Assembly: GCA_903813345.2 (NCBI GenBank)
Contig: CAIIXF020000002.1
Location: forward strand, 3,324,001-3,388,000
DNA: 64,000 bases
Direction: 5' to 3'
DNA from: Owenia fusiformis
Taxonomy: Eukaryota; Annelida; Polychaeta; Sabellida; Oweniidae
Shown: one piece after another, positions 1 through 57,683 of the stretch
Numbering within the stretch: position 1 is the first letter of the stretch
How the letters are laid out: the number at the start of each line of letters is the position of its first letter
Position numbers and translations under genes: made by a program
Notes under the pieces: model-generated
Seen by the model: the letters and a program-made list of their open reading frames with translations, nothing else
Told to the model about the DNA's origin: nothing
Database searches by the model: none

Positions 1-531
1 TGGTATCCTTCTAGGTGTTTGATCAAGTTAAAGTCTTACAAAATGAAATCTCCCAAACTGTCAATGAAATGGTCAAATCTCAGACAGAGTATTCAAAGGA
101 GGAACACCTTTCCCACAATTCAATTTTGATTTATACTCTTGGTATCCTTCTAGGTGTTTGATCAAGTGAAAGTCTTACAAAATGAAATCTCCCAAACTGT
201 CAATGAAATGGTCAAATCTCAGACAGACTACTCAAAGGAGGAACACCTTTCCCACAATTCAATTTTGATTTATACTCTTGGTATCCTTCTAGGTGTTTGA
301 TCAAGTTAAAGTCTTACAAAATGAAATCTCCCAAACTGTCAATGAAATGGTCAAATCTCAGACAGACTACTCAAAGGAGGAACACCTTTCCCACAATTCA
401 ATTTTGATTTATACTGTTGGTATCCTTCTAGGTGTTTGATCAAGTTAAAGTCTTACAAAATGAAATCTCCCAAACTGTCAATGAAATGGTCAAATCTCAG
501 ACAGAGTATTCAAAGGAGGAACACCTAGCCC
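1..531 (+). repeat. 139-bp tandem array covering an intron end, splice acceptor and F-BAR exon
   Basis: Four copies with acceptors CTAG at 14, 153, 292 and 431, an exact 139-bp period. The array may continue left of the window. Each copy holds the acceptor and about 95 bases of exon. Only the last copy runs on into the genuine exon tail and donor (GTAAGT at 569). In the first three copies the exon text turns into intron text after GAGGAACACCT, so they have an acceptor but no donor. Reading through them in the exon frame reaches TGA at the next copy. Confidence 0.9.
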
Positions 532-3500
532 ATGATGCAAGAGTGAAGGCTTCAGAAGCTGAACAGAAGTAAGTTTTAGAATTGAGTGCTTTCATTTCTG
601 ATGTTTGTATTCTTCAATACTTACACAAGTAATATGTATTACTATATCATTGCTTGAAACCGTGTGATTTGATTGGCTGATTCAGTACCATGTGATCAAA
701 AATATCATCAATTTCAGCAATATCAGCAATTTCACAGCTCCCTGAGTTATTAAAATATAAAAGACGCATTGCCCGGCAATTACATTTTCTTTAATATAAC
801 TCATTCCTAGAAAGTTAGGAACTTGCTCCAATATCTGATTCCAGTAATACAAATGAATATTTACAAAGAAGTAATGTCTTACTTAAAGTGTATGTTGTAA
901 ATAGTTACAAATGAAATGAAACCCCTAAAATCCATATTAACCCGATTTCAGGTTAAAGAAGAGATCTATTGGATTATTTTCCTCAATGGCTTCCCTACAG
1001 AAAAACACAGCAAAGGTATTGTAATGTAAATTTATTAAATCCATGATGTTTTAAATAATGATTTTTTTAGGACTCCTTCACTGATTTCAATAGCTCGAGT
1101 TAATGTTTCTAATTTGAACCTCAATGAGGTTTTGCACGGTTCTTAGGACTTCATCAGTACTTTCCAATTTGAAAACTGTATGGTTCACAGTGATTGTAAA
1201 ATCATTCACTGCTACCTGCAGTTGATAAACTTAACCAATGATAGCTAAAATTGGAATAGCAATGAATGCATCATTTCATAGACAATAAATGAGCTTGGCC
1301 ATAGGAAAACCAGTCTTATCACAAAAATTTAAATTGTGCTACAGAGCCAAAAATGTGCCCAAGATTAAGATGAAAATGTGCTAAATTCAAATCCGACTTT
1401 TTGGTCTGTATATGCAAGGGAAAATTGTTAAGACACAAGCCATGGCTCAATTGAAAGGTATTTTTGTGCTTTTTAAGATAAACAAAAAATCAGAATTTTG
1501 AAAAAATTGTGATAAGACCCCTTTTCCCGTGGCCTGGCTCAAATATATAAGATGGCTAACATTTATCTTACTCGAGCATTGATTTTACTCCAGTTGACTG
1601 CCAGAAAAGATGCATGTGAGGTGAAATCCACCAGTGCCAGAAATGACTACCTGTTAAACATGGCTGCTGCTAATGCCCAGCATATCAGACACAGCAGTAC
1701 AGACCTTCCAGAGCTTATACAGGTATGTATATATAAGGGGGGGGGGGTAGCTAATGCCCAGCATATCAGACACAGCAGTACAGACCTTCCAGAGCTTATA
1801 CAGGTATGTATATATAAGGGGGGGGGGGGAGTAGCTAATGCCCAGCATATCAGACCCAGCAGTACAGACTTTCCAGAGCTTATACAGGTATGTATATATA
1901 AGGGGGGGGGGGGAGTAGCTAATGCCCAGCATATCAGACCCAGCAGTACAGACCTTCCAGAGCTTATACAGGTATGTATATATAAGGGGGGGGGGGAGTA
2001 GCTAATGCCCAGCATATCAGACCCAGCAGTACAGACTTTCCAGAGCTTATACAGGTATGTATATATAAGGGGGGGGGGAGTAGCTAATGCCCAGCATATC
2101 AGACACAGCAGTACAGACCTTCCAGAGCTTATACAGGTATGTATATATAAGGGGGGGGGGAGTAGCTAATGCCCAGCATATCAGAAACAGCAGAACAGAC
2201 TTTCCAGAGCTTATACAGGTATGTATATATAAGGGGGGGGAGTAGCTAATGCCCAGCATATCAGACACAGCAGTACAGACTTTCCAGAGCTTATACAGGT
2301 ATGTATATATAAGGGGGGGGGGGAGTAGCTAATGCCCAGCATATCAGACACAGCAGTACAGACCTTCCAGAGCTTATACAGGTATGTATATATAAGGGGG
2401 GGGGGGGAGTAGCTAATGCCCAGCATATCAGACCCAGCAGTACAGACTTTCCAGAGCTTATACAGGTATGTATATATAAGGGGGAGTAGCAACATGTAAT
2501 GCCCAGCATATCAGACACAGCAGTACAGACCTTCCAGAGCTTATACAGGTATGCATATATAAGGGGGAGTAGCTAATGCCCAGTATATCAGACATAGCAG
2601 TACAGACCTTCCAGAGCTTATACAGGTATATAAGTGTGGTGCGTGGGGGGGGGGGCAGTAAGGCTAAAAAGGGATGAGGCACAACTAAAGCCAAGAAGAG
2701 CACATGCACATATGTATATGACAGTATGAGATCATTTTCAATGTCTGTATGTAACAGTGGCAAAAATGACATTTGGGTGGAGAATTTGCCTTGCCCACCT
2801 CATTGCTTGTTATGTCAACTGAACTGTGAGAATTTAGAGGGTTGGAGTATTAAAAAACACAGGTTGTTGCAGAAATAGTTATTGGAACCTTTACAGGGTG
2901 TTGCAGAGTTGGTATTCTAAGCATTAACACATAGGATAGTAAGCGTGGTCTATCAATTTACAGGGTGAAACATAAATATAAAGAAAACAATTCAATGGTA
3001 ATAGACATACCTGGAATACATGTTTGCACACACATCAGTCAATTAACTTGTACATATTAATTGTTGCAATAAAGATATAAAACTGAGGATTTTGTTGCAA
3101 TAAAGATATAAAACTGAGGATTTCGAAAGATAAAGCAAAGATTCTATATTTTGTGTCTTGTATTTGTTTTTTATAGAATTTAGATGGTGAAACGTTCGAC
3201 AGAATACGAGACTACTTCTTAGTGCTGGGAACGCTAGAAGTTCAAAGTTGTGGAGTCACACAGGAATGTTTCAGTAGAGTCTTACTAGAGTCAGGCATGG
3301 TACGTTACATGTTTAAACTTTCCAATACACGTCAAACTGGACCTGATCTGAAGATGATCTCTATATCTCACTTAATAGACATTTCTGATCGATATTCATA
3401 GCTACTTTTTCCCCATCATTGAGTGAGTTCAAGTTTTGGGCCTCATGTTTTTTTAATATAAACATGTTTACTTTCTCGAATGAAGTGCCCCTTTCTTTAT

Positions 3501-6500
3501 ACTGACTATGTTTGCAGGGGTTTCACTAGAATTTCTCACAACAGGCTAAATTAATGAAAACAACAGGCAAAATCAATGAAAATCATGGAAAAGTTGAAAA
3601 GTCCCTCAAAACAACAGGCAATTTTGTGAAAACAAACTGGTGAAAATTGCCTGCTGCCTGCTGCTAACGAAACCCCTCTTCTGCCAGTATGCATCCTTCT
3701 AAGCAGGCGTCCAGAATCAATACAGTACCTCCTTCTTCCCCCTGCTATAACAAATTTGGAAGCGCCCGATTTAACTGAGTCACGTTTAATTATGCGCAAT
3801 GACGTATACATGATTTCTGTCCCAGTGTTGCGACAGCCAATCAGATTGCGAGTTCTTAATCAGGGAAATGCTAACTGCCTAACGCAGGGGTAAAAAGAAA
3901 GAATATATTCTGGATTTTGAAGCACTGTGATCGGAGGATGCCAGTATGATACAGAGTCTGAATGGGTGCATTGTCTACTTGTTCAGTAATTTTTTTCCTA
4001 ATAAGTCCAACAACAAAAAGTACACTGGTATCTGATTTATGTTGACATGAGTGATGACTTTTATTTTCAGATAAGCCAAACATACAACCTACAGTGTTTC
4101 CTCCACAATAATTTTGTGTTCACAAATCTAGTGCAATATAAGTTTGAACCATGTGATAATGATCAGGTAATAATGAATTCCTAATTCTAGTGCAATATGA
4201 ATTAATCATGTGATAAATCTAGTGCAATATAAGTTTGAACCATCTGATAATGATCAGGTAATAATGAATTCCTAATTCTAGTGCAATATTAGTTAATTAA
4301 AATTCCTAAATCTAGTGCAATATGAATTAATCATGTGATAAATCTAGTGCAATATAAGTTTGAACCATGTGATAATGATCAGGTAATAATGAATTCCTAA
4401 TTCTAGTGCAATACTAGTTAATTATAATTCTTAAATCTAGTGCAATATGAATTTAATCATGTGATAAATCTAGTGCAATATAGGTTTGAACCATGTGATA
4501 ATGATCAGGTAATAATGAATTCCTAATTCTAGTGCAATATTAGTTAATTGTAATTCCTAAATCTAGTGCAATATGAATTAATCATGTGATAAATCTAGTG
4601 CAATATAAGTTTGAACCATGTGATAATGATCAGGTAATAATGAATTCCTAATTCTAGTGCAATATTAGTTAATTAAAATTCCTAAATCTAGTGCAATATG
4701 AATTAATCATGTGATAAATCTAGTGCAATATAAGTTTGAACCATCTGATAATGATCAGGTAATAATGAATTCCTAATTCTAGTGCAATATTAGTTAATTA
4801 AAATTCCTAAATCTAGTGCAATATGAATTAATCATGTGATAAATCTAGTGCAATATAAGTTTGAACCATCTGATAATGATCAGGTAATAATGAATTCCTA
4901 ATTTTAGTGCAATATTAGTTAATTAAAATTCCTAAATCTAGTGCAATATGAATTAATCATGTGATAAACCTAGTGCAATATAAGTTTGAACCATGTGATA
5001 ATGATCAGGTTATAATGAATTCCTAATTCTAGTGCAATATTAGTTAATTATAATTCCTAAATCTAGTGCAATAGGTATTCAATCATGTGATAAATCGTGT
5101 GCAATATAAGTTCAAACCATGTGATAATGATCAGTTTTGATTTGAAGAAATTGGCAGTGAAAGTCAAGCAATGGACTAAGAGTGTCACTATTGAGTCTGT
5201 TTCTAGGTAACAGGAATATCCTCTGATTTTTGTTGTTCCATTGCTAGGTAACAGGAATATCCACTGTTCATTGTTATCATGAATATCCACTGTTTATTGT
5301 TATTATGTTGCTAGGTAACATGAATATCCACTGTTTATTGTTATTATGTTGCTAGGTAACAGGAATTTCCACTGATCACAATGCAAGAGAGCAGGTAGAA
5401 TCTGAGGCCAAGAAATGGGCAACCAAGGTCGCTAAGGAATCCAAGGCAATAAGAGATTACACTCGCAAATATAACGCATTACAAGCTTCTATCAACAATT
5501 CTGGCAATAAAAAGGTGAGATTTCTACAAACTCTGAAATGATGATAACCACAAGAGATTTTTCAGGCCAGCTAATATTAAATTATGATTTAATAGCTCTT
5601 AGAGACCTCTTAACAGTGTGATACTGTGATACTTAAGTACCAATTTTCATTATATTTCATTATAGAGGGCGCCTTCAGAATCATCATCTGGAGATGGTAA
5701 GGAGAAGGACAAGAATGAAGTTGATCCTGAGACTCGTTTAGAGGAACTAAAACAATACATACGCAGAGCTGAGGTATGCAAATATGAGATTTTGATTTCT
5801 GCTTATTTCATTTATATTTTACATATACAAAAAATATAGTTGCTATGGTTTTGCAATATAGAGGCAGCTTTATAAAGTTGCATATAAATCACAAAAGAGA
5901 ATGCAATTAAAAAGCTTAAAGGTACAACATTTGAAAATGGTGAAAATTTTAAAAGCTTTCTTTGGGTCAAAGTACTTTTGCAAACAAACTTATTTTACCT
6001 GTTCATTCTCCAATTTAGTGAATCTTCTATCACCAAATAATAAAAACTGATTTAATTTCATCTGAATTCAGGTCTTGGAAAATCTCCACAAATGGAACAT
6101 TAATTATTTAGAAGTACCAAAAGGCATTGCATTTACAGTACAAAATATAAGGAAATTAGTACAAATTTTCTCAGGATTCCAAATCTAAAATCAGAATTGA
6201 AACTTCTGGCTTAGGATCTATGGCCTTTTGAAATCTCAAAATAACGTTAAAGTTACCTGTAATAGCGAACCAATTTTTGATTATACTCTTACCATTACTG
6301 AGCCTCCTCAGGTACCTACTATTTATCTATTTAACACAAATTCTACAAATTATCCATTCTGTTAACTGCTACAAAACTCAATAAGTTTTGGGCTATGGGT
6401 GTTTTCTGAGCGCTTTCAGATGAATACCCATGTAATTAATTTATTTTTTGCCATTTTTATTTCAGACAGCCAGGATGAAGGCAGAGGGAAGGTTAGATTT

Positions 6501-9500
6501 ACTCAGGATAGCGGGAAGTAAGTCTGAAACTCTTGAAAGGTCTCTTAACAATAAATGAATAAATAAATAGATAATATTAACAAAATTAACAATAAATAGA
6601 TAAAGAAAAATAAACAATAGAAAGATACAAACAAACAGGCAATTATAATTGATGGAATAAAAAGCAAGTGTCTGATGAGCCTACTAATAATGCACATGTA
6701 CACGTACGATGTTATTAGTGCACCCTTAAACATGTAAATTGTGATCACTAATCCCTATTTTGTATAGTATTGGATGATTATATTAACAATATTATGTTTA
6801 ATGAACGTATATTTCAGTTAATGTTGATGAATGGTTAAGTGTTGCCCAAGCGGATCATGAATCACATGCAGATGACCTCGATGAAGATGTTACTAGCAGA
6901 CATTCTATGCACTCACAGCACAGTTCGGGAGGGGTGAGTTAGATTACCCAACCTTGTTAGGGAAACATACTCTTTAAAGTATGAATAAGGAGAAAATGAA
7001 AAGGGTATCTTGAATTTTCATATGTTTTAGTCATAGGTATTTGACCATGTAAGTTCTTAACAGAATTGGATTTGTAAAGTTATTGAAATGTAAAATATAT
7101 TCAATAGTGTCTAAACGGAGTAATCATAAACAGAGTAATTTTTTCGTATCATCCGAGAACATGCATGGGACATCAAAAGAATGGAATTAAAATTGTTCTG
7201 CAAAAAAGAGGTGTTTCAGTCATCAATGTTTAAAGATATAATTATTACATTTTCAAGAATTTTGGATCATTCGATTCATTGAATGGAAGACCCCAAATTG
7301 GGAATATTTAACCCACATAACTGGAAACTACTATGAATTCACTTAAATCACTAAATTCCATTCTGTTGCAGAGTGCTGAAGACCACTCTTCAACCCCAAC
7401 TAAAATATCACAACCAGCCGCAGACATCAGTTACCATAACTACCAGGAGGATGATCTAGAATACATAGACGATACCTATGCAGGAGAGTCAACGGGAACT
7501 ACCCATAATGCCTACACAGGGAGTAGGTTGGGACAGGTGTATCCAGTTCAGTGTCTAGCTCTTTATGAATTCCAGGTATTTATCCATTCAAAACCCCAAG
7601 ACTCAGGAACTTACATAAAAGTTCTAGGCTCTGAAGATGTTGAATTAAATACTGTAAATGTGTCTTATCTTATTCCAACGCCACTGGTATCAGCCAAAAG
7701 TTTTAGGATTGGCAGCTGTTCATTCTTTTAATGATTAAATGATTGTAAATGTAAATTACATAGTTGTTCATTGTTTCAGGGAAGCAATCAGGATGAGTTA
7801 ACGTTTGCTGAAAATGAACAATTGGAACTTATTGCTGATGGGGATGGAGATGGCTGGGTAAAGGTGCGTGATTAGGCCATGCCTTAAATACTCAAATATT
7901 ACCCAATTCTCTCCGAATATTTCATTGTGCAATTAAACCTGCACATGTGCAACACTCTTCATACTTGCCAGATACGTTTCTAGAAGATTTCGTTTTTTTA
8001 GAGAGGGTTCTTTTAAACTGTTTATAGATGTGTTGTTTATAGAGAGGTTTTCTAATATCATGGGCAGCTTGCTGTATTTGATTACATTTGATATACATTT
8101 TAAGCTGCACATTTTAAAGAGAACATTATCACGGTGTTATAGCATGACAGATACGACAAGGCAATTGACCAAATTATGCGGTAACGATAACAAAAAATGG
8201 CGGACGGGAAAGACAGCATGTCCTCTTTTTCGCCTGTAGGCAAGATTCACAGATAAGCTTTCCTTTTCAACTAGTTCCATTCGGTGATGCATATGTGAAT
8301 GGTTTTAAAGATTGAGTTAAATCTGTCGTGTGGTCTACAAGAAGCAGAATATAAGCTGTAAACCTACCCAGCTGAGATTTCGAAGTTCATAATTTTTAGT
8401 CCTTTTTCGTGTTTTCTCAGTATATGTGCCTCAGAGCCACTAAAAATACTAACTGTACGTAAACTGTGCATAAACAAGCCATAAAATGACAAATGCAGAA
8501 CAGAAATGTGGTAAATATTGTAGATAATAAGGTTTCAATCGCAAGGTCGTTAGACAGATACGTATGTATTGCATGCTTTTTTATGGACAGCAACGCATTG
8601 TATTAGTTTTACATTAGATGTTAGCGGACGGTTACATGCAAGTTCCTGTCAAGTCAAGGTCCCTAGATGGATAGCTCTCTATGTGTGAACTGCCTATATT
8701 TGTTTTCAGGACTCGCAAGAGACGCTCTTGCTTGAGCCTCTATAGGGCAAGGAAAAAATAGCGAAAGCCAATGAAAGTGAAAATGATTGTAATGAAGAGG
8801 CAAAGGAAGAAATTAGTAACAACGAACAGGCGACGGAAGAAAACAACTCCAAATTAATTGATGATGTCATAAGTGACATTAGACATTACCATTATTACAA
8901 ATCATATTCAGCTGTTTATGTCACCATCTTCATAATAGTACAATAACGTCATTTCTGCGGGCAATATGAAATATTGGACCAAGGGCCGCAGGCCCAAGGT
9001 CCAATATTTCACTATTTTGCCCGCAGAAATGACGTTATTACCATTATTACCACCGTTAATGCCCAGGGCTGAAATAGCAAATTTGAAATAGAAAATCTTA
9101 CGCACTGAACGATATCACTTTTCCCGGGAAACATAGCCGGGCGAATAATATCATTATTGCCCGACTAAAGTCATTAACGCCCGACACAATATTGCTCACG
9201 TCAATATAGCAATTTAAATGCCTTCTCAACTAGTACTAAAACCCCTAGAACAGGCCCTGCAAGGTGGTAATAATACGATTTCATCTATTATAGCTTACAA
9301 AACTCAAATCCGGTTGAAAAACATTTCAATTTTGGATCACAAGCGATATGAAATGATTCGGTTTTACATATATGAACGAGGTTCGCGTAACTGTCTATCA
9401 ATTTTTGGCGTATCCGCAAATTCAAAATACATTATTATGGCTTGAGTAGAACATATTAAGTGGTTTACAATGCTTAATTGGCTTTGTATGATCGTATGTA

Positions 9501-12500
9501 GGTTACATTTATATACACCAAGGTTGTTGCGCAATGTAGAGCATGTCCTAACGAAGAAAAGAAACAAATTACTAAATTTTATGAAGTTTTGAATTTCAAA
9601 CTCGACAGTTTTTCGCTTATTTCATGTTATCCATGGGCGTCGATTTGCAAAGACTACGTTCAAAATAAACATTACTGAATGCATCCCCGAATGCGACGCT
9701 TACATAAATCTTTCATGCTTTTATTGATACGCAGTAGTAGAACATAATGCACCTACCTTAGCTTTCTGTTTCATCGTGGCCATTTTATTGGATAAATCAG
9801 TGATCGTATACGACTAACCTCGTTTTCAGAGGTGGCGTATCTGTCATGCTATAACACCGTGATTATGTGTATTACTAAATACATATAAATATATGACAAC
9901 TACCGGTACTTCCTTCCTCTCAATTGGATCTTCCAGGGACCCAATTCCAACTACATGTATTTTCCTTCTAACACTGTATTCAATCTGGCTAGTAATTACA
10001 AGAAAGGGGAGAATAAATCCATAGAGGACCATACTTCTTACATGCAAGAATTCTTGAAAATACATAGTGTAATGACCCCAGGGCGCCCCAGGGGAATGAC
10101 TAACTAACGAGCATAGTGTAACAAGCCAGATAAAGAAATTGAAAGAAAGTGTGCTAAATTCAATGCCCCGTGTGGGAATCGAACCTAGGACCCTTGGACC
10201 CAAAGTCTGATGCTCTACCGACTGAGCTATAAAGACTTAAGCCTTTACAGCTGGGCTTGTGTAGCAACTTGCTATCAAGGGTTGTTACACTAGCTAAACC
10301 TCCATTACATCCATTATTCTAGGGACGTAACTCCAATGGAGTAGAAGGATTTATCCCTGAAAATTATGTCCAAATCCTGGATGGAAGTGTTTCTGAGGCA
10401 GTAATCCCTAACAATATAGACCACGCAACAGATCAGGCTAATTCTGCAACTGATGATGCCACATACTTGGCCAACAGTGTAGACCAACCCACCTCAATTT
10501 CTAGTCTTCAAAGTGGTCACCAGGGGGAGACAGCTCCTATCGCTATAGCAACAGATTTGTCTCAAGATGGCCGTGCATCTTATTCTTCCAATGATTACGA
10601 GGTGGAACAGGTCAATGATGGTCAACAAGTCGTAGATGGTAAATGGCATTCTTTTAACCATATCAATTGTTTTATAAACTACATGATATGTTTATTCAAA
10701 ACCAATACATGTTTTGGGTTAAAATTATGATATCAATAAAAGAGTTAACTTTTGGAGCACTAAATTCATGAGATTTGATTAAATATTCTTAGTTTGCCCT
10801 CGAGCGATATATCATTTGTATGTATATTTTTGAACTATTTATCTGTATTTTTTACATACTCAATTTATTTCAGTAATAATATTATGACTTATATTCATAT
10901 GAGTACATTATTATACATTATAGTTTGATTTCATATTTTTTAGACATCCAATATTATTTATCATTTACTATTTAATTTATTTATTGTGTCTTAGGTTTCC
11001 TTGACAAAGTTCCTATTTTGATGACCATATACAGAAATGAAGGTTTAAACATTTCATAATATTGTACACAGGGGTATAAAACAGTTGGCGTAATCTAATC
11101 TCTTTTGTAATGCTTGCCCACTGTTAAACACCCCTGTCTGCCTAATTTGCATTTTGCTCCTCGAAAATGAGAAAAATGGTTGGAAAATTAAATTAATTAA
11201 TTTTGACTGTTATCATTTTTGACTGTTATCATTTTTAAAATAACAGAATGATTTAAATTATTTTGTATTGACCCATATGCAAACTAAAGGAGACTAATTA
11301 GTGATTGTTAGCACTTTGGAATTATTTAAATATCATTAGATGGCAGGCTCAGTGTTATTATATCACATAGATGCTTGCATTTGAATTATGAATAAATGTG
11401 TGATTTAACAAGAAGCATGTACAAAACAGCAAATTACAATTAATATTATGTTATTTTGGATATATACTATCTGACTCATACCTTGTTGATGTTAACAAAT
11501 TCTGAGCTAATTGTGGTGACTATATTTTGGTAAGGAATACTCTATTGCATGGACTCTTGAATATATGAGTAATCTTTAGTTAAGTTGTTGATTTTGGACT
11601 TTGTGGTTCATAGTTAGTAATTATAATAATGATTAATGATGATTTTTATGTTTTTCTACTCACTCGTGTTGGAAAAAATTATTTCTCCTAAAACGATCAC
11701 CGATTTCATGATTCAATATAGCCATGGAGTATTTTAACTCCAAAAATAAATTAACTTTTCAAATATTCCAAACATATATTTTTCAATAACATGTGGTAGA
11801 TCAAGTTATCTGTATTTACACATTTCAAAAGTAATGATTAAATTTAATTTCTTTCCTTTCAAGACAATATCCCCATATACATGTAAGATGTGTTTCTAAA
11901 TTATCTAAACACATATACTCTAACAAACATAAAGTAATATAATTTCTTTCATCTCTAGATGGAATGTGGGCCAGAGCACTGTACGATTATGAAGCCTGTA
12001 CCACAGAAGAACTCTCCTTCATTGAGGGCCAGCTTATCAAGGTGCTACGCAAAGAGGAGAAGGGGACAGATGATGGGTGGTGGAAAGGGGAGGTGGAGGG
12101 AAAAGTTGGAGTTTTTCCATCTCTTGTCGTTGAGGAAATCACAAATAATGATAATGACCAGGTTTGTGTTTATTTAAGGGGTCTTTCATCTTATACACTG
12201 TAAGTTTGAGTTTATTTAAGGGGTCATGTATCATATACACTGTGAACTCAGTTTTGCATGTCTATGTCACCAACATGAAGTAGTGATCATAACATACTGT
12301 TGACCTTCAAAATTGTAGTGACTGGTATTTAATTAAGATCTGTTTCTATGGCAACACATCAGAAGACTTAAAACACTTCTTTTCTTTGCTCATGTTCATT
12401 TATGAATACATTAGAGAATCAAAAGTTTTAAAGCAAGAAAACGTAATAGTGATAACTTCAGAAGTCATGGTGAGATTTACTTGAAACTCTTCAGAATTGA

Positions 12501-27340: not shown

Positions 27341-30300
27341 CACTGTGAAAAAAGCCAAATATAGTTTGTACTATAGCAAACTATTTTTTAGAATAACCCC
27401 CATATAGTTTGAATTTCACCTAAAATATGGGCGAGAATAGTTTCTCCCATATTCCTAAAAACGGAACACTTTAATATAAGTCCTGATATACTCTCCGATA
27501 CGCCCATATAAACTAAAATAAGTTGCATATATCATTGCAGAGTGTATATCTTTACTGAACTATTTTCCACTTATAAGCCTAAAAGTCGGAATCAAACCTA
27601 CTATATGCGTTGAAAAACAACTTATATTAAATAAAAACAGACTATATCAAACTATACTTGACTTATTCTTCTCTTATTCTACCTCAAAACAAACTATACT
27701 CGTCTTATACGCGATATTACGTAATAGCTTCAGTTCCCGAGTTTGTTGTTTTAACAGATTAAAAGCAAAGTCCAGCATTGATGTATTTTGTTTTCAATGC
27801 TAATTAATTCGCTTGTTCAGATTAATCTGGTCATTTCTATAACTGAGGGTTCTAATTTCCATCAAAAAGTCATTTATAAATTGAGCTTTTTACTTTTACT
27901 AAATTGGACAATGACAGTCGAATTAGAATTAACACCGTGTTAAATTTTGGATTCATTTAATTAAGTCTGTGGAAAGTTACATTTTTCAATTCACTTGGTA
28001 TTGAAGTAAAACTAATATATAATAAAATGTTTAATATAGTTGCAATAAGAGGGAATCGTATATTTTTTCCTGTATGGTAGCCAGTTATTTCCTGTATTAC
28101 AGCGGAATAAGATATAATAACTATTTTTAAAAATTAATTTTTCTTTAGTAATATTATTTGTGTATTATTTGAAGGGAACAACATATAATGCCTTATAATA
28201 TAGAATAATATTCTAGTCAGGAGCAAATAATATCTTGGCATTTGCAATCAAAACCGGATTATATGCGTTTATTTTTGAGCCGTTAATCCCTAAGTATTCC
28301 ATTCCTGTGAAATGAGTTTCATTCACACTAATTAATCCGTTTGTTAGGATTAATTTCTACAGCTGATGGTTCTTATTTCTCAAAAAATTATTTGCAAATT
28401 AAGTTTTTACATATTTATTTGATTGTATAATGTCCCTCGAGTTATGATTAAGATTGTGTTAAATTTGGGATTCAATCGATAAATCCATTGGAAAGTTAAT
28501 TTTTTATTCTTAATTAATGAGTTTTCCTCACATTTTTACTCTATTGTTTATTTGTCACATCAGGTTTACAACAAACAACATTTAAATCCCCCTCTTACAC
28601 AGGTACAAACAACCACCTGTACTATTCACTTTGCCAACCAAAACAGTCATGACACGGAACTGCTCAATATTCAATTAATATATTACGCATTTATACAAGC
28701 CCGTACCTAAGGACCCCCTACCCCTGGCCAACAATTCTTTGAAGAAATGCAGTTTTTCACCATTCATATACATGTATTGACATGTCAGAGCAATGTAATT
28801 AGTAAAACTTTAATCCATAAGTATTCAATTTCTATGAATTGAGTTTTGTTCACCCTGATAAATAATCTGTTTGTTAGAGTTAATGGATTAATTTCTACAG
28901 CCTATGGCTCTAATTTCCACAAAAATACAAATTAAGTTTTTCATATTTATTTGATTGTATAGTGTGCCCCGTGCTATGATTAACATTGTGTTAAAATTTG
29001 GATTCAATCGATTAACTCATTGGGAAGAAATTTCTTGATTTTTAATTATGGGGTTTCCTCACAATTTAACTCCATTGTTTCTCTCTAACATTTAACTCCA
29101 TTGTTTCTCTCTAACATTAAGCTTAATACAACAAACAACATTTAAAACCCTCTCTTACACAGACACAAACAAACACCACTATTCACATCGCAAACCACAC
29201 AATACGTTTATAACACAATATTGCAAAAATATTCAGCTCAATACATTACGCATTTGATACAGGTCTGTGGCCATGGGGGAGGGTCGTTGGGTTCATGTGA
29301 ATCCCTCACCCCCTTGCCAAGATTCTTTTAAAATCATACAGTTTTCACCAATCTGAGCACTGTCAAGTGATTTTTGGCCAACATTATCAATTTTGACCCC
29401 CTTGGTACGTTTTGAAAAGTGTCCCCCTGAGCTCAAACTTATTACGTGCCTGTAATATACCAGAAATATTGCTCAGATTTCATCTGACAAATCACTTATA
29501 ATAAATTAGGAAATAACATGCATTATGTAAATGATACAAGTAGTATTAAGCCATATTAAAACAAAGTTAAAACTTGTATTCTTTCACATTTCACAATTCA
29601 TGTGTTTTCTGTTATCCATATGATAACTGAGATAAACACCCGTGATAAACAACAGAGATTAGCCCGTGCAATACAATTGTTTCTATTAGAATTGGACCAT
29701 TTCTGTTTATAACAGCTGGTTTTATTAATCATTCTTTGTTTTCCGTTTCAATATAGACATATACAAATGGTGCAAGATTTGGTATGTTTAGTTGATAATG
29801 TAATAATGCAAATGAAGAAACGGGCGCATTTTACATTTATTGCAAATGTTTCATCTGACAAATTGATGATTATGTTTTGAGCAAATTGGTGCATGGAAGA
29901 ACAAACTGATGCAAATAACATACAGTATGGACATACAGCTATGTCAGAGCAATATGATAAGTAAGACTTTAATCCCTAATTATTTAATTTCTATAAAATG
30001 AGTTTCGTTAACACTGATAGCTAATCTGTTTGTTAGAGTCAATGGATTAATTTCCTACAGCCAACGATTCTAAGTTCCACATACAATAATTTGCAAATTA
30101 AGTTTTTTATATTTATTTGATTGTATATTATCCCCAATGTTATGATTAACATTGTGTTAAAATTTGGATTCAATCGATCAATTCATTGGAAAAATATTTT
30201 TTTAATTCTTAATTAATAAGTTTTCCTCACATGTTTACTCTATTGTTTCTCTGATCCCCCTTATATTACACAGGCACAACCACCTGTATTCACTTTGTCA

Positions 30301-33300
30301 GCCACAAATAACAGTCTTGACACAGAAATGCTCATTATTCAGCTAAATACATTACGCATTTTATACAGGCCCGTACCTAGCGACCCCCTCCCCTTGACCA
30401 TCAATTCTTTCAAAATCATGCAGTTTTTCACCATCTCGTACATGTACAACTGTATTGACATGTCAGAGCAATATAAATACAACTTTAATCCCCAAGTATT
30501 TAATTTCTATGACATGAGTTTTGTTCACTGATAACTAATCCGTCTGTTATGAGTTAAAGGATTAATATCTACAGCCGATGGTTCTGATTTCCACAGAAAA
30601 ATAATTTGCAAATTAAGTTTTTCTAATTTATTGGATTCTTTAGTGTCCCTCTTGCAATGATTAATATTGTGTTAAAATTTGGAATTAATCAATTAACTCA
30701 TTGAAAAGTTTTTTTTGATTTTTAATGAATGACTTTTCTTCACCTTTAATCCACAGTTATTACCCAAATGTTGAAAGAAACAGTGAAAGGTTAAACTAGG
30801 CTCATGAGTATGTTTCAATTTGAGACATAGTATGTGATGTGCTCCAGGTACATCAGAATATTAAAAAGTTCAATTTGGCGCATTAGTATTGTTCAATTTG
30901 GCGCATTATTTATGATGTTCAAAGTACATCCTTACAGTGAAAGATTAAACTTGGCTCATGAGTATGTTTCAATTTGGGGCATAGTATGTCATTGCTCCAA
31001 GTACATCAGTATTTCAAAAAGTTCAATTTGGCGCGTTAGTATAGATCAATTTGGCGCAATATTTATTATGTTCAAAGTACATCCTTAGAGTGAAAGATTA
31101 AACTTGGCTCATGAGTATGTTTCAATTTTGGGCATAGTATGTCATGTGCTCCAAGTACATCAGTATTTTAAAAAGTTCAATTTGGCGCTTTAGTATATAT
31201 CAATTTGGCGCACTATTTATTATGTTCAAAGTTCATCCTTGTATTGAAAGGTTAAACTTGGCTTATGAGTATGTTACCATTTGGATATAGTCTGTGACAT
31301 GCTCTAAGTTCATCAGTATTGAAAAGTTCAATTTGGCGCATTGGTATAGTTCAATTTGGCGCGTTATTTATGATGTTCAAAATACATCATAATATTGAAA
31401 GATTAAACTTGACTCATGAGTATGTTTCAATTTGTGCCATAGTATGTTATATGCTGTTCTTCAGTATATTAAAAAGTTCAATTTGGCGCATTATCATAGT
31501 TCAATTTGATGCATTATTCATAATGTTCAAAGTACATCCTTACATTGAAAGGTTAAACTTGGCTCATGAGTATGTTTCAATGGGATATAGTATGTGATGT
31601 GCTCCAAGTTCATCAGTATATTAAAACGTTCAATTTGGCGCATAACCATATTTCAATTTGGCGCGCTATTCATGATGTTCAAAGTACATCCTTACTTTAA
31701 AAGGTTAAACTTGGCTCATGAGTATGTTTCAATGGGACATAGTATGTGATGTGCTCCAAGTTCATCAGTATTTTAAAAAGTTCAATTTGGTGCATTATCA
31801 TAGTTCAATTTGGCGTGTTATTTATGATGTTCAAAGTACATCCTTACATTGAAAGGTTAAACTTGACTCACGAGTATGTTTCAATTTGGGACATAGTATG
31901 TGATGTGCTGTAAGTTCATCAGTATATTAAAAAGTTCAATTTGGCGCATTAGTATAGTTCAATTTGGCGCATTATTTATGATGTTCAAAGTACATCCTTA
32001 CATTGAAAGGTTAAACTTGGCTCATGAGTATGTTTCAATTTGGGACATAGTATGTGATGTGCTTCAAGTACATCAGTATATTAAAAAGTTCAATTTGGCG
32101 CATTAGTATCATTCAATTTGGTGCATTATTTATGATGTTCAAAGTACATCCTTACATTGAAAGGTTAAACTTGGCTCATGAGTATGTTTCGATTTTGGAC
32201 ATCGTATGTGATGTGCTCTTACTTCATCAATATATTAAAAAGCTCAATTTGGTGCATTAGTGTAGTTCAATTTGGTGCATTATTTATGATGTTCAAAGTA
32301 CATCCTTACAATGGAAGGTTGAACTTGGCTCATGAGAGTATGTTTCAATTTTGAACATAGTATGTGATGTGCTCCAAGTACATCAGTATTTTAAAAAGTT
32401 CAATTTGGCGCGTTAGTATTTATCAATTTGGCGCGTTTTTTATGATGTTCAAAGTTCATCCTTACATTGAAAGGTTAAACTTGGCTCATGAGTATGTTTC
32501 AATTTGGGACTTGGTATGTGATGTGCTCTCAGTTCAATAGTATATTAAAAAGTTCAATTTGGCGTGTTAGCATAGTTTAATTTGGGGCATTATGAACATC
32601 ATAAATAACGCGCCAAATTAAACTATACTAATGCGCCAAATTGAACCTTTTAATATACTGATGAACCTACAGCACATCACATACTATGTCTCAAATTGAG
32701 ACTCATGAGCCAACCCAAGTTTAACCTTTTTAACCATTTTATTCATGAAATTGTAAAATATAATGTACTCTGTAATTACTGAATGCTATGTAATTGACAA
32801 ATATATTGAAATATATGCATATTTTATACTTAAACTTTGTGTTTTGTTCTGTATCGTTTTGTGACACTTGTTGATAAGGTTGATCCGTACTATTATATAT
32901 GTTATAAATTGTACATGTAACCTAATGATTTGCATACAAAAATAAGTTTTCATTCAGCGCAATCCCTCATCCTTCATAATATTTAATCCCGGGGATTTTA
33001 TACCGATTCCTTATTGTATTTCATACGTTTGAATATTGCTATCTTTTTAAAATTTAAAAATGCATCACCATCATCAACTTCTGCCACATAATTATACAAC
33101 AATTAATTTTCCTCCAGATGGCTTCACTCTAAACCTCCGACTAGACTAGGGGTCTAATTTGTCATAGGAAAGTCAGGATTGTCTCAATTTAAAACTGACA
33201 AAGAACAAAGATATCACGGTACGCTTTATCTAATTGTAATTTTAACGACACCGAAATTGCTGCTGAATTTTTGGACTAAAAACAAACTTCAAATTAATAT

Positions 33301-33734
33301 GCGCATATTTTACTCAAAACGGACATTAAGTTTGATTAAGCTTTCTTAAGCGAAATGCATGATTTTATTTGTTTACATTAGCGCTTAATTAAAAAATAAA
33401 ATAGGATTAACTCCAAGCAAATTAGGGCACATCAAAGAATATATAGCCTCGCGTATAAGAGGCGTATAGTTTGTTTTTGGATTACATAATACATACTATA
33501 CTCATGTTTTCCATGTACTTATATCCTACTATTCCTGGCTCTTAAGAATAATCGGAGAATAGTTCAAACGATATTTAGTATCGTAGAGTATATACCACCA
33601 ATACTAAATGTTCCGCTTCTGAGGCAAGAATAGTTTGTTTCCCATACCGAATACGATATAGTGAGGACATACTGAACTATATTCACAAATAGTTTGCCAC
33701 TTATACGCTACTATATTTGGCTTTTTGCACAGTG
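27341..33734. mobile_element. 6.4 kb inverted-end element with satellite core, copy 1 (element A)
   Basis: Ends are inverted: CACTGTGAAAAAAGCCAAAT at 27341 and (reverse of right end) CACTGTGCAAAAAGCCAAAT at 33734, with further weaker matching inward. TGC flanks both sides, a possible 3-bp duplication. The arms are AT-rich without ORFs; the left arm holds several diverged ~1 kb internal repeats (words TTGCAAATTAAGTTTTT, TTTGGATTCAATCGAT recur). The core, 30780-32720, is a 153-154 bp satellite. A second copy lies at 55911-62832, nearly identical. No transposase, so it is non-autonomous. Confidence 0.8.
30780..32720 (+). repeat. 153-154 bp satellite array, about 12 units, core of element A copy 1
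   Basis: The unit contains two TTCAATTTGGCGCATTA blocks, ATGTTCAAAGTACATCCTTA, GGTTAAACTTGGCTCATGAG and GTTTCAATTTGGGACATAGT. The period is 153-154 bp. About 18 exact TTTGGCGC words occur. The last unit (from about 32590) is inverted, giving a head-to-head junction near AACATCATAAATAACGCGCC. Short ORFs across it are repeat translations. Confidence 0.92.
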
Positions 33735-46900: not shown

Positions 46901-49900
46901 GCCATCGTCTTCTCGAGTCACAGATGCAATGGTTTTATGGATCCAGTGCATCTTTATACAGCAATTTGATCAAACGCGTCATGATAAAGGCGATCTCGAA
47001 AATGCACAACAGAGCTTGGCAATCGTATCAAAGCCCCATTAAAGCGTCATAATCGCATCAAAGCGTATACTCAAGGGGCGAGGAGGAAAATTCTCAATAA
47101 ATGGTGTATAGTTGGTTTGGCAGCATTTTCAGTTAGGGGAGAGTCTTGGATGAAACTTCCTCCTAGGTGATAGCTTCACAGAGTGGTAGGAAGTTCTTTT
47201 TTTTGAGAAGTTCGCCCCCACCCCCCAAAAACGACCCACCCTGGGGAAAAAAATTGTTCACAGTAAATAACCTTAGATATTTTGATGTTTGTAAGTGACA
47301 TACATAGATATTATATATATGAATCATTTGCAGTATAATTGATGCTGATTGCTCCTAAGAAAATTGAATATTAGTACAAAGTGTGTACCCCAGGGGGCAA
47401 ATTCGTGACTCATTTTCTTACTATTTTGATCCTAACTTTACAATTAGACACTGTAAGAGGTTGAAAAAATTCATGGGAAGTGCCCAATAGCAGGGCTAGT
47501 AAATCTGAAAGATGCAAAGCCATTGAAAAGGTAGGAGCTGAGAAAAAAATTGTTGATTTTTGACATTTTTGACAGTTGGATTTTGTGTATGACTATAGCT
47601 GACCCCTATAGTTTCTAGATTCATCCCTCTATAATGATATTTATGGTTTTATAGTGTGGAACTAAGATGTAAAACATAATTTAGATGGGTTTTAAGGAAG
47701 TTAAAGGTTTTAAACAAGTCCAAAATTTGAAAAATTGTAAATATAAGGTTTCAAATTTACATATTCCAGGTATAGCCATGGCTGACCCCTATAGTTTCTA
47801 GATCCATCCCTCTATGATGATATTTATGGTTTTGCCATGTGGAACTAATATGTAAAACACAATTTAGATGGGTTTTAAGAAAGTTTAAGGTTTTAAACAA
47901 GTCCAAAATTTGAAAAATTGTGAATATAAGGTTTTAAATTTACGAATTTCAGGTATAGCCACGGCTGACCCTAATGGTTTTTACATACATACCTCTATGA
48001 TTAAATATACAGTTTTAGAGGGTGGGACTAAGATTTAACATATCCAAAATGAATTTTAAACAAGTCCGAAATTTGAAGAATTGTAAATGTTAGGTTTCAA
48101 ATTTATGAATTTCAGGTATAGCCAAAGATGACCCTTATGGTTTTTACATCTATACATCAGGGATGAAATTATTATTAGAGTATTTAACTAAAATGTAAAA
48201 GATACCTAAGATGAGTTTGAAGGAAGTTCAAGGTTTTAAACAAGTGCAAAATTTGAAAAATTGATCTCAAAATTGGTCTCAAATTCACGTTATTCAGGTA
48301 CAGCCTTGAATGAGCCCTGATAATTGAAGGTTATGAGCATAATAGTATCAACTATGATATCATAGCTTAGAGACCAGGTGTAGAATATATACCTGTTGCA
48401 GCGGTTAGTCTGCTGCATATAGATGGAGTGAAAAGTCGTGAACTACAGTAAAATCTCTCTAATCTGAATGCTACTGGTATTTGAACCAGCTAAAAGCATT
48501 CTAATTAGGAGTGTTTGAATTTTGAGGTTTTTACATCTACAATACAAGTTCTGGATTTTGAAGAAATATGGATGCATTCTCAATGAAAAATATTAATAAT
48601 ATTTATACTGACCACATAAAAAGCTTAATAGCATTCCAAAATCCAATTCAAAAGTTTTGATATCATAACAATTCAGTGTTAAACTGACAATATTTGAGCA
48701 ATTTTGTAAGAAATATGTGATATTTGGTAAAAAGAGTTCAAGTTAGACGGGTTAATTTTTCAAATATGAGTGTTCACTGTTCGAAGTAAGAGGTATTCAG
48801 ATTTCAATTTTTTAAACATAGGAGTCAATGGGAGGAAAAATTGGACTGGGAAAAGTGTTCAGATTGGTGGGTGTTCAGATTAGTCAGGTGTTGGGATGAT
48901 TGGTAGGTATTCACAATAGTCAGATTTCGGGATATACAGGTTTCACTGATGATTTATCATTTATACAAGATGATGAACTAGAACTACTGTACTAGGTGCA
49001 TTTGATGATTTTTACCACAATGTTAATACTATGTCAGGAAAAGAAAGCACCCATGACACTTTGCTTGTACAACTTGAAAATCAACAACACTTTAAGATTT
49101 GATAAAGGTGTCTACCAAATGAGTAATCCACATAAATTTAAATACAAGCACTTGGCATGATATTCCCTATGATGCTATTTATAGATTTTTAGTCAATGTT
49201 ATTGATCAGCTTATTGGTTTCATTACTTTCTCTAGAATCTAAAATTGACCTTGGGTTTATGAGAGTGGTAAATTGGAATGCAGTTATATGTAGTATTGAA
49301 TTGGCTGGAATTGGACACACGTTGCCTAGCTATGGGTGAGTAAACTATGATCTTATATGGATACAAACAGTTCATTCAGAACTTAAAAAGGGGTTTGAAA
49401 TTGAGATCGATGAAACCATACCACAAATTGATAAAACTTCCGTGATCGATGCAATGGCTATGACAAAAGGAAAATTAAGATTAACTTATATGTTGAAATT
49501 TGGAGAGTTTTGGAAAGCTATATTTGACTACTCCATCAAATCTAGTAAAGGAGTCCAAAGAATAGATTTCATATTAGACTCCTAGTAGTCTCCATCAGTA
49601 AAGGATTCTGAAAGAATGCAAATTTTCAAAGATTACAAAGAAATTTAATAAAGCAGCATTCTAAAAGTGTGCCAAATGTCAAGATTGTTTTAAGTGGAAC
49701 TATTGGGGAGAACTCAAATATCTGTGAAAATGATAACTGAAATCCCCTGTTAAATTCCACTCTTGAAGAGGCTTATTTTAAACTTATTCACTCTGTTTTA
49801 CATTCAGCAGGAGAACATGTGGGACTGCAGTAATTTGCATCAAATGACACTGATTTTCTAATTTTATGACCATCATTTCAATAAATGTAAAAAATTCTTC

Positions 49901-52900
49901 AACTGCTAGAAAATGTCATCTGCAAAGTCAGTATGTAAACATTTTCTACAATGTCTGTTTGTTTGAAACATATTGATCATATATATCACCATATATACTT
50001 TTTTGATCTACATGAAGATTTTAGTGTGACAAGATCCTTTTATCCTGGAGTTCCTAATCTCATTGCACTAACAGGAGTTTCTAGGCCCAGCGGGGTATGA
50101 TCCTTATAATCCTTATTTACTGTTGCCTGATGACAAGTTGTTTTATTGGGAGTGTAGTGATTATAATTTGATAATTTATAATAATATTTTGTATTAGGAG
50201 ATGATCATTGCTTAATTACAGTATGGGCGTAACAAAATATCGAGAAATCATGTTTCTTTTAATTTACCATGTCTTTATGTATTTTGACAATGTAGAACAT
50301 TACATCGAACATGTTGATGTGAAAAAGTAAAAATGCTATATCACATAATAAATATCATCAAATTATAATTAATTAGTTATAATCCATTTAATCAATCAAT
50401 TACTACACTGTATACGATATCCCTAAGAGCAGTTACACTTTAGGGGGCGGGTGGGATTTATTAACCTCTCACCCCCTTAGGAACTCTAGGGTAAGGTCCT
50501 CAACTCTAATGATTTTTCTTTTAACAATACTTGTAACATGGATCAAACCTGACCACAATATTTTCAACATCTAATTTCTAAGCTAAAAAGTCATACATTC
50601 AAAAAGATAGACATCCAAGCAATATCTGAAATTGTAAAGGAGGACGGAAAGTATCGCAACAGATTTAGGACAGTCACATGTTGGATTTTTGCTATTTTCT
50701 GAGGATTTGAGGAGGTGCATATGTTAGGCCAATGTATTTCCTCCAGGAAAAGCACTCGTAGAGATGATAAAATAATTTCTATTTGAGACAGGGTGCAAAC
50801 AACCCACCCACATGCATCAATATGTTGTGTTTTGACACACAGTTAAACTCTTTAAAGAAATAATGCATTCCATCAGGGGTTTAAAAGATATCAAATATGG
50901 GTGACCAAAATTAAGCTGAAAGTAATGGAGCACATGAGTTTTCCCTATGGGAAAATAACAGGAAAATATTGTTTTCTGCTTTATCTAAAAGAAATTTATT
51001 ATTCCTTTTTATGGGTTAACTTTGTCTCAAAACGCAACATATTGATGCAACAAAAATTGAAAAAGCAGGGGTAAAAGGGCTTGAAAATCAGGACAACATT
51101 TCCGAAAAAACATGTGGCTTGATTGTTTGCACATTCGCTGTCTCAAAGTCCAAACTATTTTATCTTTCTTTTCCCGTAGGTAATGCAATGGCCTATCATA
51201 TGCACCTGCTTAAATCCTCAGGAAACAGACAAAATCTAACATATGACTGTCTGTTGCGATACTTTCCTTGCTCCTTTGAGACCTGATGTTTCTCAATTTT
51301 TCAAACATTGCACTTGTTAAAATTCTTAAACTTCCTTAAAATTCATCTTCGGTATGTTTTACTTCTTAGTTTCACACTCTAAAAATATATGTTTCATCAT
51401 AGAGGTATGGATGATTTTGGACTTGTTTAAAATATTTAACTTCCTTAAAACCCATTTAAATTATGTTCTACATCTTTACTTCCATACTACAAACCATAAA
51501 TATCACCAAAGAGGGATGGATTTAGAAACTATAGGGGTCAGCCATGGCTATACCTGGAATTCGTAAATTTGAAACCTTATATTTACAATTTTTCAAATTT
51601 TGGACTTGTTTAAAATCTTTAACTTCCTTAAAACCCATCTAAATTATGTTTTACATCTTAGTTCCACACTATAAAACCATAAATATCATCATAGAGGGAT
51701 GGATCTAGAAACTATAGGGGTCAGCCATGGCTATACCTGGAATTCGTAAATTTGAAACCTTATATTTACAATTTTTCAAATTTTGGACTTGTTTAAAACC
51801 TTTAACTTCCTTAAAACCCATCTTAATTATGTTTAACATCTTAGTTCCACACTATAAAACCATAAATATCATTATAGAGGGATGGATCTAGAAACTATAG
51901 GGGTCAGCCATGGCTATACCTGGAATTCGTAAATTTGAAACCTTATATTTACAATTTTTCAAATTTTGGACTTGTTTAAAACCTTTAACTTCCTTAAAAC
52001 CCATCTAAATTATGTTTTACATCTTAGTTTTACACTATAAAATCATAAATATGATTATAGAGGGATGGATCTAGAAATTATAAGGGTCAGCTATAGTCAT
52101 ACACAAAATCCAGCTGTCAAAAATGTCAAATTTTTCGAAAATTCAACAATTTTTTTCTCAGCTCCTACCTCTTCCATGGCTTTGCATCTTTCAGGGTTAC
52201 TAACCCTGCTATTGGGCACTTCACATGAATTTTTTCAACCTCTTACAGTGTCTAATCGAAAAGTTAGAATCAAAATAGTAAGAAAATGAGTCACGAATTT
52301 GCCCCCTGGGGTACATACTTTGTACTAATTTTCAAATTCTTTAGGAGTTATCAGCATCAATTATACTGCAAGTGTTTCATATATATAATATCTATGTATG
52401 TCACTTACAAACATCAAAATATCTAAGGTTATTTAGTGTGAACAATTTTTTCCCCAGGGTAGGGTGTTTTTGGGGGGTGGGGGGCTAACTCCTCAAAAAA
52501 AAGAACTTCCTACCACTCTGTGAAGCTATCACCTAGGTGGAAGTTTCATCCAAGACCCTCCCCTAACTGAAAATGCTGCCAAACCAACTATACACCATTT
52601 ATTGAGAATTTTCCTCCCCGCCCCTAGAGTAGTAATAATGCTTACCAAAGCTTATCAAAGCGTGATTTTAAGTGCAACAAAGCCTGGTCGAAGCGGGATC
52701 ATAGCGTGAGGAACCGTAACAAGTCGGGAAACCAGAGCGTATCAGAGCTTTTCAGAGCGTAACATTACTTAGGAGATCGTGATATTTTTGGAAAAGTAAA
52801 CATGATGACAGCGCTTTGCTCGCCGATTTAAAGTGTGGCATTCGCCGTTGGTCTGATAAATCAATTTTATCAATTCTGATAGTAACAACCCAATCACAGT

Positions 52901-55104: not shown

Positions 55105-57543
55105 GTGAGTTTAACTTTTATGGAATATAATGTGAATATATTGGCCAGCTTATTTATCATGTTACACCAATTCCCTATGATCCCTATGAAATTTATCAAT
55201 TGCAAAAGTAAAAATCGATCAGTATTCTTCTAAATATATGACAATTACTGTGATGGGGTAAACTAAAAATGAGTGATGTTCAGACTTTTTAATGGCTTAA
55301 AACGACTTTAATGTATTTTTTGATTGACAATTGTACTAACCCCCCTATCACACCAAACTAGTTCTTACCCGTTCTTGCCAGTCCTACGAAAACGTCGTTA
55401 AACGGGCTCAATCTGGCTGCGATCGGGAAATATCTCTAAAATAATTAGCTACTTCGTTCATAAACAGTCTTCAATACGTCCATCTCATTCGCAGTTCGTT
55501 CATGTCGTACCACGATCGGTGTGCAACGTCGTATAACGCGTCCCTTAGTCTAAAAGGTCATCATGACCTGATTACAAAACGGTATGGTCGCCATCGAATT
55601 TTGAACCGAGTCAAAATTCTAAAATCACCTTCCCGTCTGAAAACGTTCATGAAGTTCGTAAATAGACCTTAGGATGTTGCAGCTACGTTCATTCCGTTCG
55701 CACACAGTTTAAAACCAGTTTTGAAGAACGCAGTGGCAACTTGTTTGGTGTGATAGCTATATTTTTGCTAACTCGTTCATAAGCAGTCTTTAATACGTTC
55801 TTAGTCAGTTTAAACCCGTTTGCAATTAGTTCTACCTCGTTCTCAATACGTCCTCAGACACTTCAACTCGTTGTAAAAACGTCCCTAGTAGGATTGAAGT
55901 ACGACGGTTCCATATAGTTGCATATATCATTGCAGAGTGTATATCTTTACTGAACTATTTTCCACTTATACGCCTTAAAGTCGGAATCAAACCTACTATA
56001 TGCGTTGAAAATAAATAAAAACAGACTATATCAAACTATACTTGACTTATTCTTCTCTTATTCTACCTCAAAACAAACTATACTCGTCTTATACGCGATA
56101 TTACGTAACAGCTTCAGTTCCCGAGTTTGTTGTTTTAACAGATTAAAAGCAAAGTCCAGCATTGATGTATTTTGTTTTCAATGCTAATTAATTCGCTTGT
56201 TCAGATTAATCTGGTCATTTCTATAACTGAGGGTTCTAATTTCCATCAAAAAGTTATTTATAAATTGAGCTTTTTACTTTTACTAAATTGGACAATGACA
56301 GTCGAATTAGAATTAACACCCTGTTAAATTTTGGATTCATTTAATTAAGTCTGTGGAAAGTTACATTTTTCAATTCACTTGGTATTGAAGTAAAACTAAT
56401 ATAGAATAAAATGTTTAATATAGTTGCAATAAGAGGGAATCGTATAATTTTTCCTGTATGGTAGCCAGTTATTTCCCGTATTACAGCGGAATAAGATATA
56501 ATAACTATTTTTAAAAATTAATTTTTCTTAAGTAATATTATTTGTGTATTATTTGAAGGGAACAACATATAATGCCTTATAATATAGAATAATATTCTAG
56601 TCAGGAGCAAATAATATCTTGGCATTTGCAATCAAAACCGGATTATATGCGTTTATTTTTGAGCCGTTAATCCCAAAGTATTCCATTCCTATGAAATGAG
56701 TTTCATTCACACTAATTAATCCGTTTGTTAGGATTAATTTCTACAGCTGATGGTTCTTATTTCTCAAAAAATTATTTGCAAATTAAGTTTTTACATATTT
56801 ATTTGATTGTATAATGTCCCTCGAGTTATGATTAAGATTGTGTTAAATTTGGGATTCAATCGATAAATCCATTGGAAAGTTAATTTTTTATTCTTAATTA
56901 ACGAGTTTTCCTCACATTTTTACTCTATTGTTTCTTTGTCACATCAGGTTTTTAACAAACAACATTTAAATCCCCCTCTTACACAGGTACGAACAACCAC
57001 CTGTACTATTCACTTTGCCAACCAAAAACAGTCATGACACGGAACTGCTCAATATTCAATTAATATATTACGCATTTTATACAAGCCCGTACCTAAGGAC
57101 CCCCTTCCCCTGGCCAACAATTCTTTGAAGAAATGCAGTTTTTCACCATTCACATACATGTATTGACATGTCAGAGCAATGTAATTAGTAAAACTTTAAT
57201 CCATAAGTATTCAATTTCTATGAATTGAGTTTTGTTCACCCTGATAAATAATCTGTTTGTTAGAGTTAATGGATTAATTTCTACAGCCTATGGCTCTAAT
57301 TTCCACAAAAATACAAATTAAGTTTTTCATATTTATTTGATTGTATAGTGTACCCCGTGCTATGATTAACATTGTGTTAAAATTTGGATTCAATCGATTA
57401 ACTCATTGGGAAGAAATTTCTTGATTTTTAATAATGGGGTTTCCTCACAATTTAACTCCATTGTTTCTCTCTAACATTTAACTCCATTGTTTCTCTCTAA
57501 CATTAAGCTTAATACAACAAACAACATTTAAAACCCTCTCTTA

Positions 57544-57683
57544 TGCCTGGGTCACATAGGCTCCGATCAATCGGCCGGCGCCCGGCCGATTGAGTGTTTT
57601 GTTCAATATTGTATTCAATTTTGAACAAAATACTCAATCGGCCGGGCGCCGTCGTGAAAATCAGAGCAAATGTGACCAAGGCA
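57544..57683. mobile_element. 140-bp PIF/Harbinger MITE with TTA target duplication
   Basis: Ends TGCCTGGGTCACAT and (reverse) TGCCTTGGTCACAT; a GC-rich inner hairpin (CGGCCGGCGCCCGGCCGATT). TTA flanks it on both sides (57541-57543 and 57684-57686). The other element A copy has the empty site (CTCTTACACAG near 29155), which proves insertion and fixes the borders. Confidence 0.93.

Follow-up and report, generated by a model that had tools for sequence, protein, structure and literature searches.

Each of four tandem arrays in an FCHSD-like gene of Owenia fusiformis covers one splice junction, and 17 of 663 exon edges sampled elsewhere in the genome (2.6%) also fall within clear tandem arrays that carry decoy copies. 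The excess of arrays at junctions is moderate and replicated. The process behind the arrays is genome-wide, and the FCHSD gene represents a local extreme of it; the idea in the initial annotation that the process might be local to this gene is unsupported, given the arrays at the other 17 junctions. What is new is the occurrence of splice-border arrays in an annelid lineage, at approximately 2–3% of the sampled junctions and with a replicated junction excess.

The window, that is, the whole stretch of 64,000 nucleotides that was analysed, is C2:3324001-3388000 of an assembly of 498.26 Mb in 525 contigs. In this assembly, matches to the annelid erythrocruorin linker (PF16915) exceed the cut-off of 27 bits at three places on C6 (28.4–38.1 bits), and a COX1 search gave no mitochondrial contig. 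Arrays in it were detected with TRF and by direct reading of the letters (Table 1). The top PDB matches of the SH3-coding exon were 2dl7 (KIAA0769, which we take to be FCHSD2) and 6gbu (F-BAR and double SH3 domains protein 2). A second SH3 exon, at 7780-7863, scored 22.2 bits with SH3_1, just below the cut-off of 22.9. The exons of the F-BAR region, joined by hand, matched no Pfam family and no PDB sequence, so that the name FCHSD rests on the SH3 exon.

The unit of array 1 consists of 95 bp of exon start and 44 bp of intron end. This array begins approximately 227 bp upstream of the window (locus L001) and has five acceptors; the corresponding exons start at -124, 15, 154, 293, and 432, the last of these acceptors being genuine. 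In array 2, 54 bp of exon end are followed by the donor and 23–30 bp of G-rich intron start; there are 12 donors, with the genuine one first. The unit of array 3 straddles the donor with 43 bp of exon and at least 48 bp of intron. TRF resolved it into a 125-bp row at 4176-5134 and a 91-bp row from 4124, and eight CAG|GT donors (the genuine one first, then seven intact decoys) and one degraded copy were read. The unit of array 4 has about 19 bp of exon, the remainder being intron; acceptor-like exon starts are found at 5207, 5248, and 5315 (decoys) and at 5356 (genuine).

The presence of arrays with units of 139, ~82, ~125, and ~41–67 bp at these junctions, as initially annotated, was thus confirmed by both TRF and reading, and their description as four separate events is borne out, the units being unrelated in sequence. 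The decoy splice sites proposed at the same time could be read in the copies. The array borders had been placed on the splice sites, which is wrong, since the units straddle the junctions. A genuine copy is indeed present at the edge that faces the intact exon, but this position is uninformative. It follows from the geometry: whatever segment across a single junction is duplicated, one full exon must survive, at the 5' end in donor arrays and at the 3' end in acceptor arrays, and this puts the intact copy next to the exon. In all 17 clear cases and in the kinesin locus L024 described below, the copy joined to the exon was likewise first in donor arrays and last in acceptor arrays.

Other repeats are present in the window. 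The first copy of a small array starts precisely with the GT of the SH3-exon donor; this array abuts the donor, contains no exon sequence, and does not straddle the junction. An element of approximately 260 bp at 1275-1563, with at least 39 other matches at 91–93% identity, lies in the intron directly upstream of the array-2 exon. Segments of about 6–7 kb at 27521-33734 and 55916-62832 are 98–99.5% alike piecewise, and in each a 154-bp unit is repeated 12 times (30780-32593 and 59732-61546). This pair looks like the product of recent duplication and could be a mobile element. The stretches at 47068-48252 and 51414-52631 are inverted copies (88%) with a 183-bp tandem repeat.

Table 1. Arrays and exons of the FCHSD-like gene (window positions) and clear splice-border arrays of the genome sample (locus positions; first-sample cases in gene orientation)
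Feature	Position	Strand	Unit	Junction	Remark
Array 1	1..526	+	139 bp	acceptor 431/432	genuine; TRF, reading
Exon attached to array 1	432..569	+		donor 569/570	46 codons
Array 2	1669..2629	+	77-84 bp (83 bp in TRF)	donor 1722/1723	genuine
Array 3	4124..5134	+	91, then 125-126 bp	donor 4166/4167	genuine
Array 4	5201..5374 (TRF 5214-5374)	+	67/41/26 bp	acceptor 5355/5356	genuine
Exon attached to array 4	5356..5513	+
SH3-coding exon	11961..12161	+			best PDB sequence matches 2dl7, 6gbu
Small array	12162..12243	+	42 bp x 2		TRF
L003	593		30 bp	donor
L009	5619		117 bp	acceptor
L009	7851		66 bp	acceptor
L009	8124		44 bp	donor
L010	1137		41 bp x 12	donor
L015	1418		37 bp	acceptor	doubtful, exon edge by eye
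L017	2202		34 bp	donor	doubtful, exon edge by eye
L025	1184		42 bp	acceptor
L025	2534		93 bp	acceptor
L029	640		47 bp	donor
L031	3918		91 bp	donor
L036	1253		87 bp	acceptor
L015	4105-4461		152 bp		local BLAST, clear case
L026	1791-2188				local BLAST, clear case
L043	4157		86 bp	acceptor	CCT
L044	1		83 bp	acceptor	CCT
L045	3438		154 bp	donor	CCT

In alignments of the copies, variable sites numbered 5 of 94 in the exon part and 3 of 44 in the intron part of array 1. With the last copy left out, the corresponding values were 6 of 54 and 2 of 20 in array 2, and 3 of 43 and 4 of 34 in array 3. Because the exon and intron parts vary alike, the decoy copies look free of constraint. The most diverged copy was the one furthest from the exon (132/138 in array 1, 63/74 in array 2, and 52/72 in array 3), and the edge copies on the exon side of these arrays were not the most diverged. 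The splice signals of arrays 1–3 are nearly all intact, apart from the degraded last copy of array 3. Across the sampled cases, GT or AG is retained in most decoys but not in all; in L010, the AG before GT is lost in 2 of the 11 matched copies.

In conceptual translation, all four decoy acceptors of array 1 ran into a stop at codon 49, the array 3 decoys into one soon after the genuine donor, and the decoy acceptors of array 4 into one at codon 15, 36, or 3. In arrays 1, 3, and 4, the frames thus favor the edge copy, and from reading frame and homology we infer splicing at the edge copies. In array 2, the decoy donors at 1804, 1888, and 1972 are in frame with no stop, and later decoys shift the frame and run into a stop. 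The first three decoy donors of this array may therefore be used, to judge from the frame. If so, decoys 1–3 (1723-1971) would add glycine-containing inserts, as repeats of 27–28 residues.

The genome sample was picked by protein family and blind to repeats, from places listed for dynein, myosin, kinesin, and ABC-transporter families; for each family part of the listed places was taken, with dense exon matches favored. The first sample comprised 37 loci (256,886 bp, 302 exon blocks, 601 junctions). Five listed CCT chaperonin genes (31 exon blocks, with exons taken from Pfam places and BLAST) served as a replicate, which brought the combined sample to 42 loci (286,986 bp, 333 exon blocks, 663 junctions). 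Exon blocks were defined by aligning paralogues and by Pfam places; some exons may be missed and some edges misplaced in this way. An array was taken to straddle a junction when TRF reported it with a period of at least 30 and it covered at least 3 bp of exon, straddling being decided by eye. The same criterion, not recorded in advance, was applied to the CCT replicate. The kinesin loci were trimmed closely around the motor exons. L024, which had been taken because its array was already visible, and two TE-like arrays in L007 were left out of the counts, and nine exon blocks (three each in L010, L025, and L007) were dropped as decoy copies or TE-like. For the null expectation, the unit of each array was placed randomly in its own locus, and placements wholly within an exon or over two edges were rejected.

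The 17 clear cases consist of 12 found with TRF in the first sample, two found with local BLAST, and three CCT cases; by TRF, the border-array anatomy is seen in 12 of the 42 sampled loci. Three clear and three degraded cases are found in L009, which has 14 exon blocks. The degraded ones (262/361, 964/1105, and 4419/4549) were left uncounted, as were L012 282/377 and a local copy in L041 (3782/3857); weak local copies, e.g. those in L008 and L016, are also outside the count. Six arrays near junctions were judged by eye to be non-straddling: L004 6364, L005 6517, L007 3751, L017 1982, L023 5059, and L034 3037. The three ABC-transporter loci (18 exon blocks) gave no straddling array; L039 had no exon block. 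It should be mentioned that L024 (C2:23266000-23270000, minus strand), a kinesin locus, has 18 near-identical 159-bp copies that include the acceptor and much of the exon. This is the largest splice-border array seen in the analysis and is outside the sample counts.

In the combined sample, 15 of the 42 arrays with a period of at least 30 straddled a junction, as compared with 5.9 expected (approximately 2.5-fold, P ~0.0002). With a period of at least 20, the value was 15 of 64 against 6.8 expected (P 0.0017). In the CCT replicate alone, three of four arrays of period at least 30 straddled a junction, against 0.67 expected (P 0.014). The excess fell when the kinesin loci were removed (10 of 36 against 4.7 expected, P 0.011) and when the two doubtful calls were subtracted (13 of 42, P 0.003). 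By family in the first sample, the numbers seen and expected were 6 and 3.3 for dynein (P 0.10), 5 and 1.2 for kinesin, 1 and 0.6 for myosin, and 0 and 0.1 for ABC transporters. The duplication process at exon-intron borders that had been suggested from the four arrays thus finds moderate support across the genome, but not as a property of one gene. Arrays were not equally common away from junctions, the finding that would have spoken against the suggestion, although 27 of the 42 straddle no recognised junction.

The claim that such a run in 5 kb is unlikely by chance holds for a single gene. At the rate of 14/601 in the first sample, the probability of at least four arrays was 2e-4 in 12 junctions and 0.005 in 29, both junction totals having been counted by reading and not taken from annotation. 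It does not hold for the genome as a whole, where some such runs are expected; a few would be expected across tens of thousands of genes.

It is highly probable, in our judgement, that these are minisatellites of the 'mirage' type: duplications that span a border are tolerated and then expanded, the edge copy is spliced, and the FCHSD cluster is partly due to chance. The process would start when a 30–160-bp stretch that by chance includes a single exon-intron junction is duplicated in tandem. Such a duplication would be tolerated, since the exon-side edge always retains a complete exon together with its splice site. The two-copy state would then expand and be homogenised, presumably via replication slippage or unequal exchange, and the remaining copies would end up in the intron as decoys, each with a partial exon and one splice site. 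These are probably ignored because the genuine site gives the shortest exon. Such arrays are found at about 2–3% of the sampled junctions, with an approximately 2.5-fold excess relative to random placement. The four FCHSD arrays might lie close together partly through chance.

Duplications might simply fall anywhere, with no preference for splice sites and with those internal to exons purged by selection, and this reading, possible though doubtful, would agree with the 27 arrays off junctions. It would also agree with the first sample without kinesins, where the excess is weak (7 against 4.0 expected, P 0.09, and 5 against 4.0, P 0.37, when the two doubtful calls are also removed). At distances of 50–500 bp, non-straddling arrays were no closer to exons than random points, and 14 of 47 lay within 100 bp of an exon, as compared with 31% of random points. 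However, random landing does not predict the combined excess or that of the CCT replicate, and non-straddlers are somewhat over-represented within 10 bp of an exon (5 of 47, against 3% of random points). The converse reading, that tandem duplication is seeded preferentially at transcribed junctions (~2.5-fold) and that 2–3% of them carry a standing supply of material from which introns could slide or be gained and in-frame protein repeats could arise, is put forward only tentatively.

Selection could also produce a junction excess, if the decoys served as alternative donors or acceptors or as splice decoys that tune expression, with in-frame repeats made from array 2 and stop-containing isoforms from arrays 1, 3, and 4. 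The mostly intact splice signals and the stop-free repeats of array 2 would fit such a role, and passages of one study indicate that human boundary repeats can alter splicing (PMC2812944). Nevertheless, a functional role seems unlikely: variation among the copies is similar in their exon and intron portions, the remaining decoys tested end in stops, and in amphioxus RT-PCR suggested undisturbed splicing, according to part of PMC3087553. The same part of that paper describes one mirage that was aberrantly assembled in the draft, and the exact copy numbers in the present single assembly could be affected if the assembler inflated them in repeat-prone stretches. As an explanation of the arrays themselves, such inflation is very improbable. 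The copies within arrays differ from one another, the anatomy recurs in unrelated loci, and L024 has 18 copies; the initial judgement that assembly error alone is a poor explanation is consistent with these observations. The mirage-type process remains the preferred reading.

About one in 40 of the sampled junctions of conserved genes is affected, which is above the expectation for random landing. Earlier reports of splice-border minisatellites were made gene by gene in lancelets, plus recent human paralogues. Two questions are made testable: whether duplication prefers splice junctions, and whether the arrays feed intron gain or sliding. Preferential seeding, if true, would provide a fast-turnover supply of ready-made splice sites, e.g. 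the open frame in array 2. In addition, gene predictors and short-read assemblies may misread junctions that bear arrays. The open-licence literature on splice-border arrays gave no annelid report, with queries in which the Owenia genome was the only annelid subject named.

Among known systems, variable minisatellites are described in part of PMC2812944 at the exon-intron boundaries of human genes that lie in segmental duplications, with 27 intron modifications. Their units are ~30 bp on average, and for recent paralogues both alternative splicing and the formation of new introns are reported there. The Owenia minisatellites likewise sit at exon-intron boundaries. They differ in that the sampled Owenia genes are conserved single members of families and not recent paralogues, and, unlike the human cases with altered splicing, the Owenia arrays are known from DNA sequence alone. 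In the AGGT model of intron gain, an exonic segment with AGGT is duplicated in tandem to give a new intron (passages of PMC3443670). Tandem duplication supplies new splice sites in Owenia as well, but the model, with its segment inside one exon, does not apply, because the Owenia units straddle existing junctions.

Tandem duplication of mutually exclusive exons also involves local copying of coding sequence in a gene. The FCHSD units do not fit this class: they hold 95, 54, 43, and ~19 bp of exon with one splice site. Whole-exon copies seem to be present elsewhere in the genome. At C9:37986009-37994334 (minus strand), myosin-head positions ~18–84 match 12 times in tandem, with starts ~330–1,940 bp apart, an arrangement suggestive of clustered alternative exons of a muscle myosin. 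In L005 (C9:7080892-7089392), one dynein AAA1 exon occurs three times (1662-1988, 2837-3154, and 6177-6548), copies 1 and 2 having 72.5% DNA identity; these copies appear to be a whole-exon duplication rather than a mirage. Similar exon pairs were seen in L011 (938/2182, 79%) and L038 (2102/2599, 71%).

The closest counterparts are the amphioxus 'mirage' minisatellites, so that duplication at exon-intron borders had already been described (the name is also that of a transposon in a passage of PMC9071541). In the passages drawn on from PMC3087553 and PMC3902484, mirages are reported in Adh3, the globins BflGb6 and BflGb9, troponin C, and PGBD5, with units of 10–72 bp in Adh3, 150–160 in the globins, and 60 and 108 in PGBD5. 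They show length instability with apparently normal splicing, and AG or GT is found in many copies; the globin authors proposed mirages as a source of new introns. Further traits of mirages are splicing at the authentic edge copy only, copy-number polymorphism between haplotypes, somatic instability, and homogenisation of the internal copies to the exclusion of those at the boundaries. As in amphioxus, the units of all four Owenia arrays span an exon-intron boundary, at a donor or an acceptor, and many, not all, copies carry AG or GT. The Owenia arrays differ in that they occur in an annelid genome, four of them in one gene, with a measured frequency (17/663) and excess, and are known from the sequence of one assembly. 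By anatomy, the FCHSD arrays belong with the amphioxus mirages.
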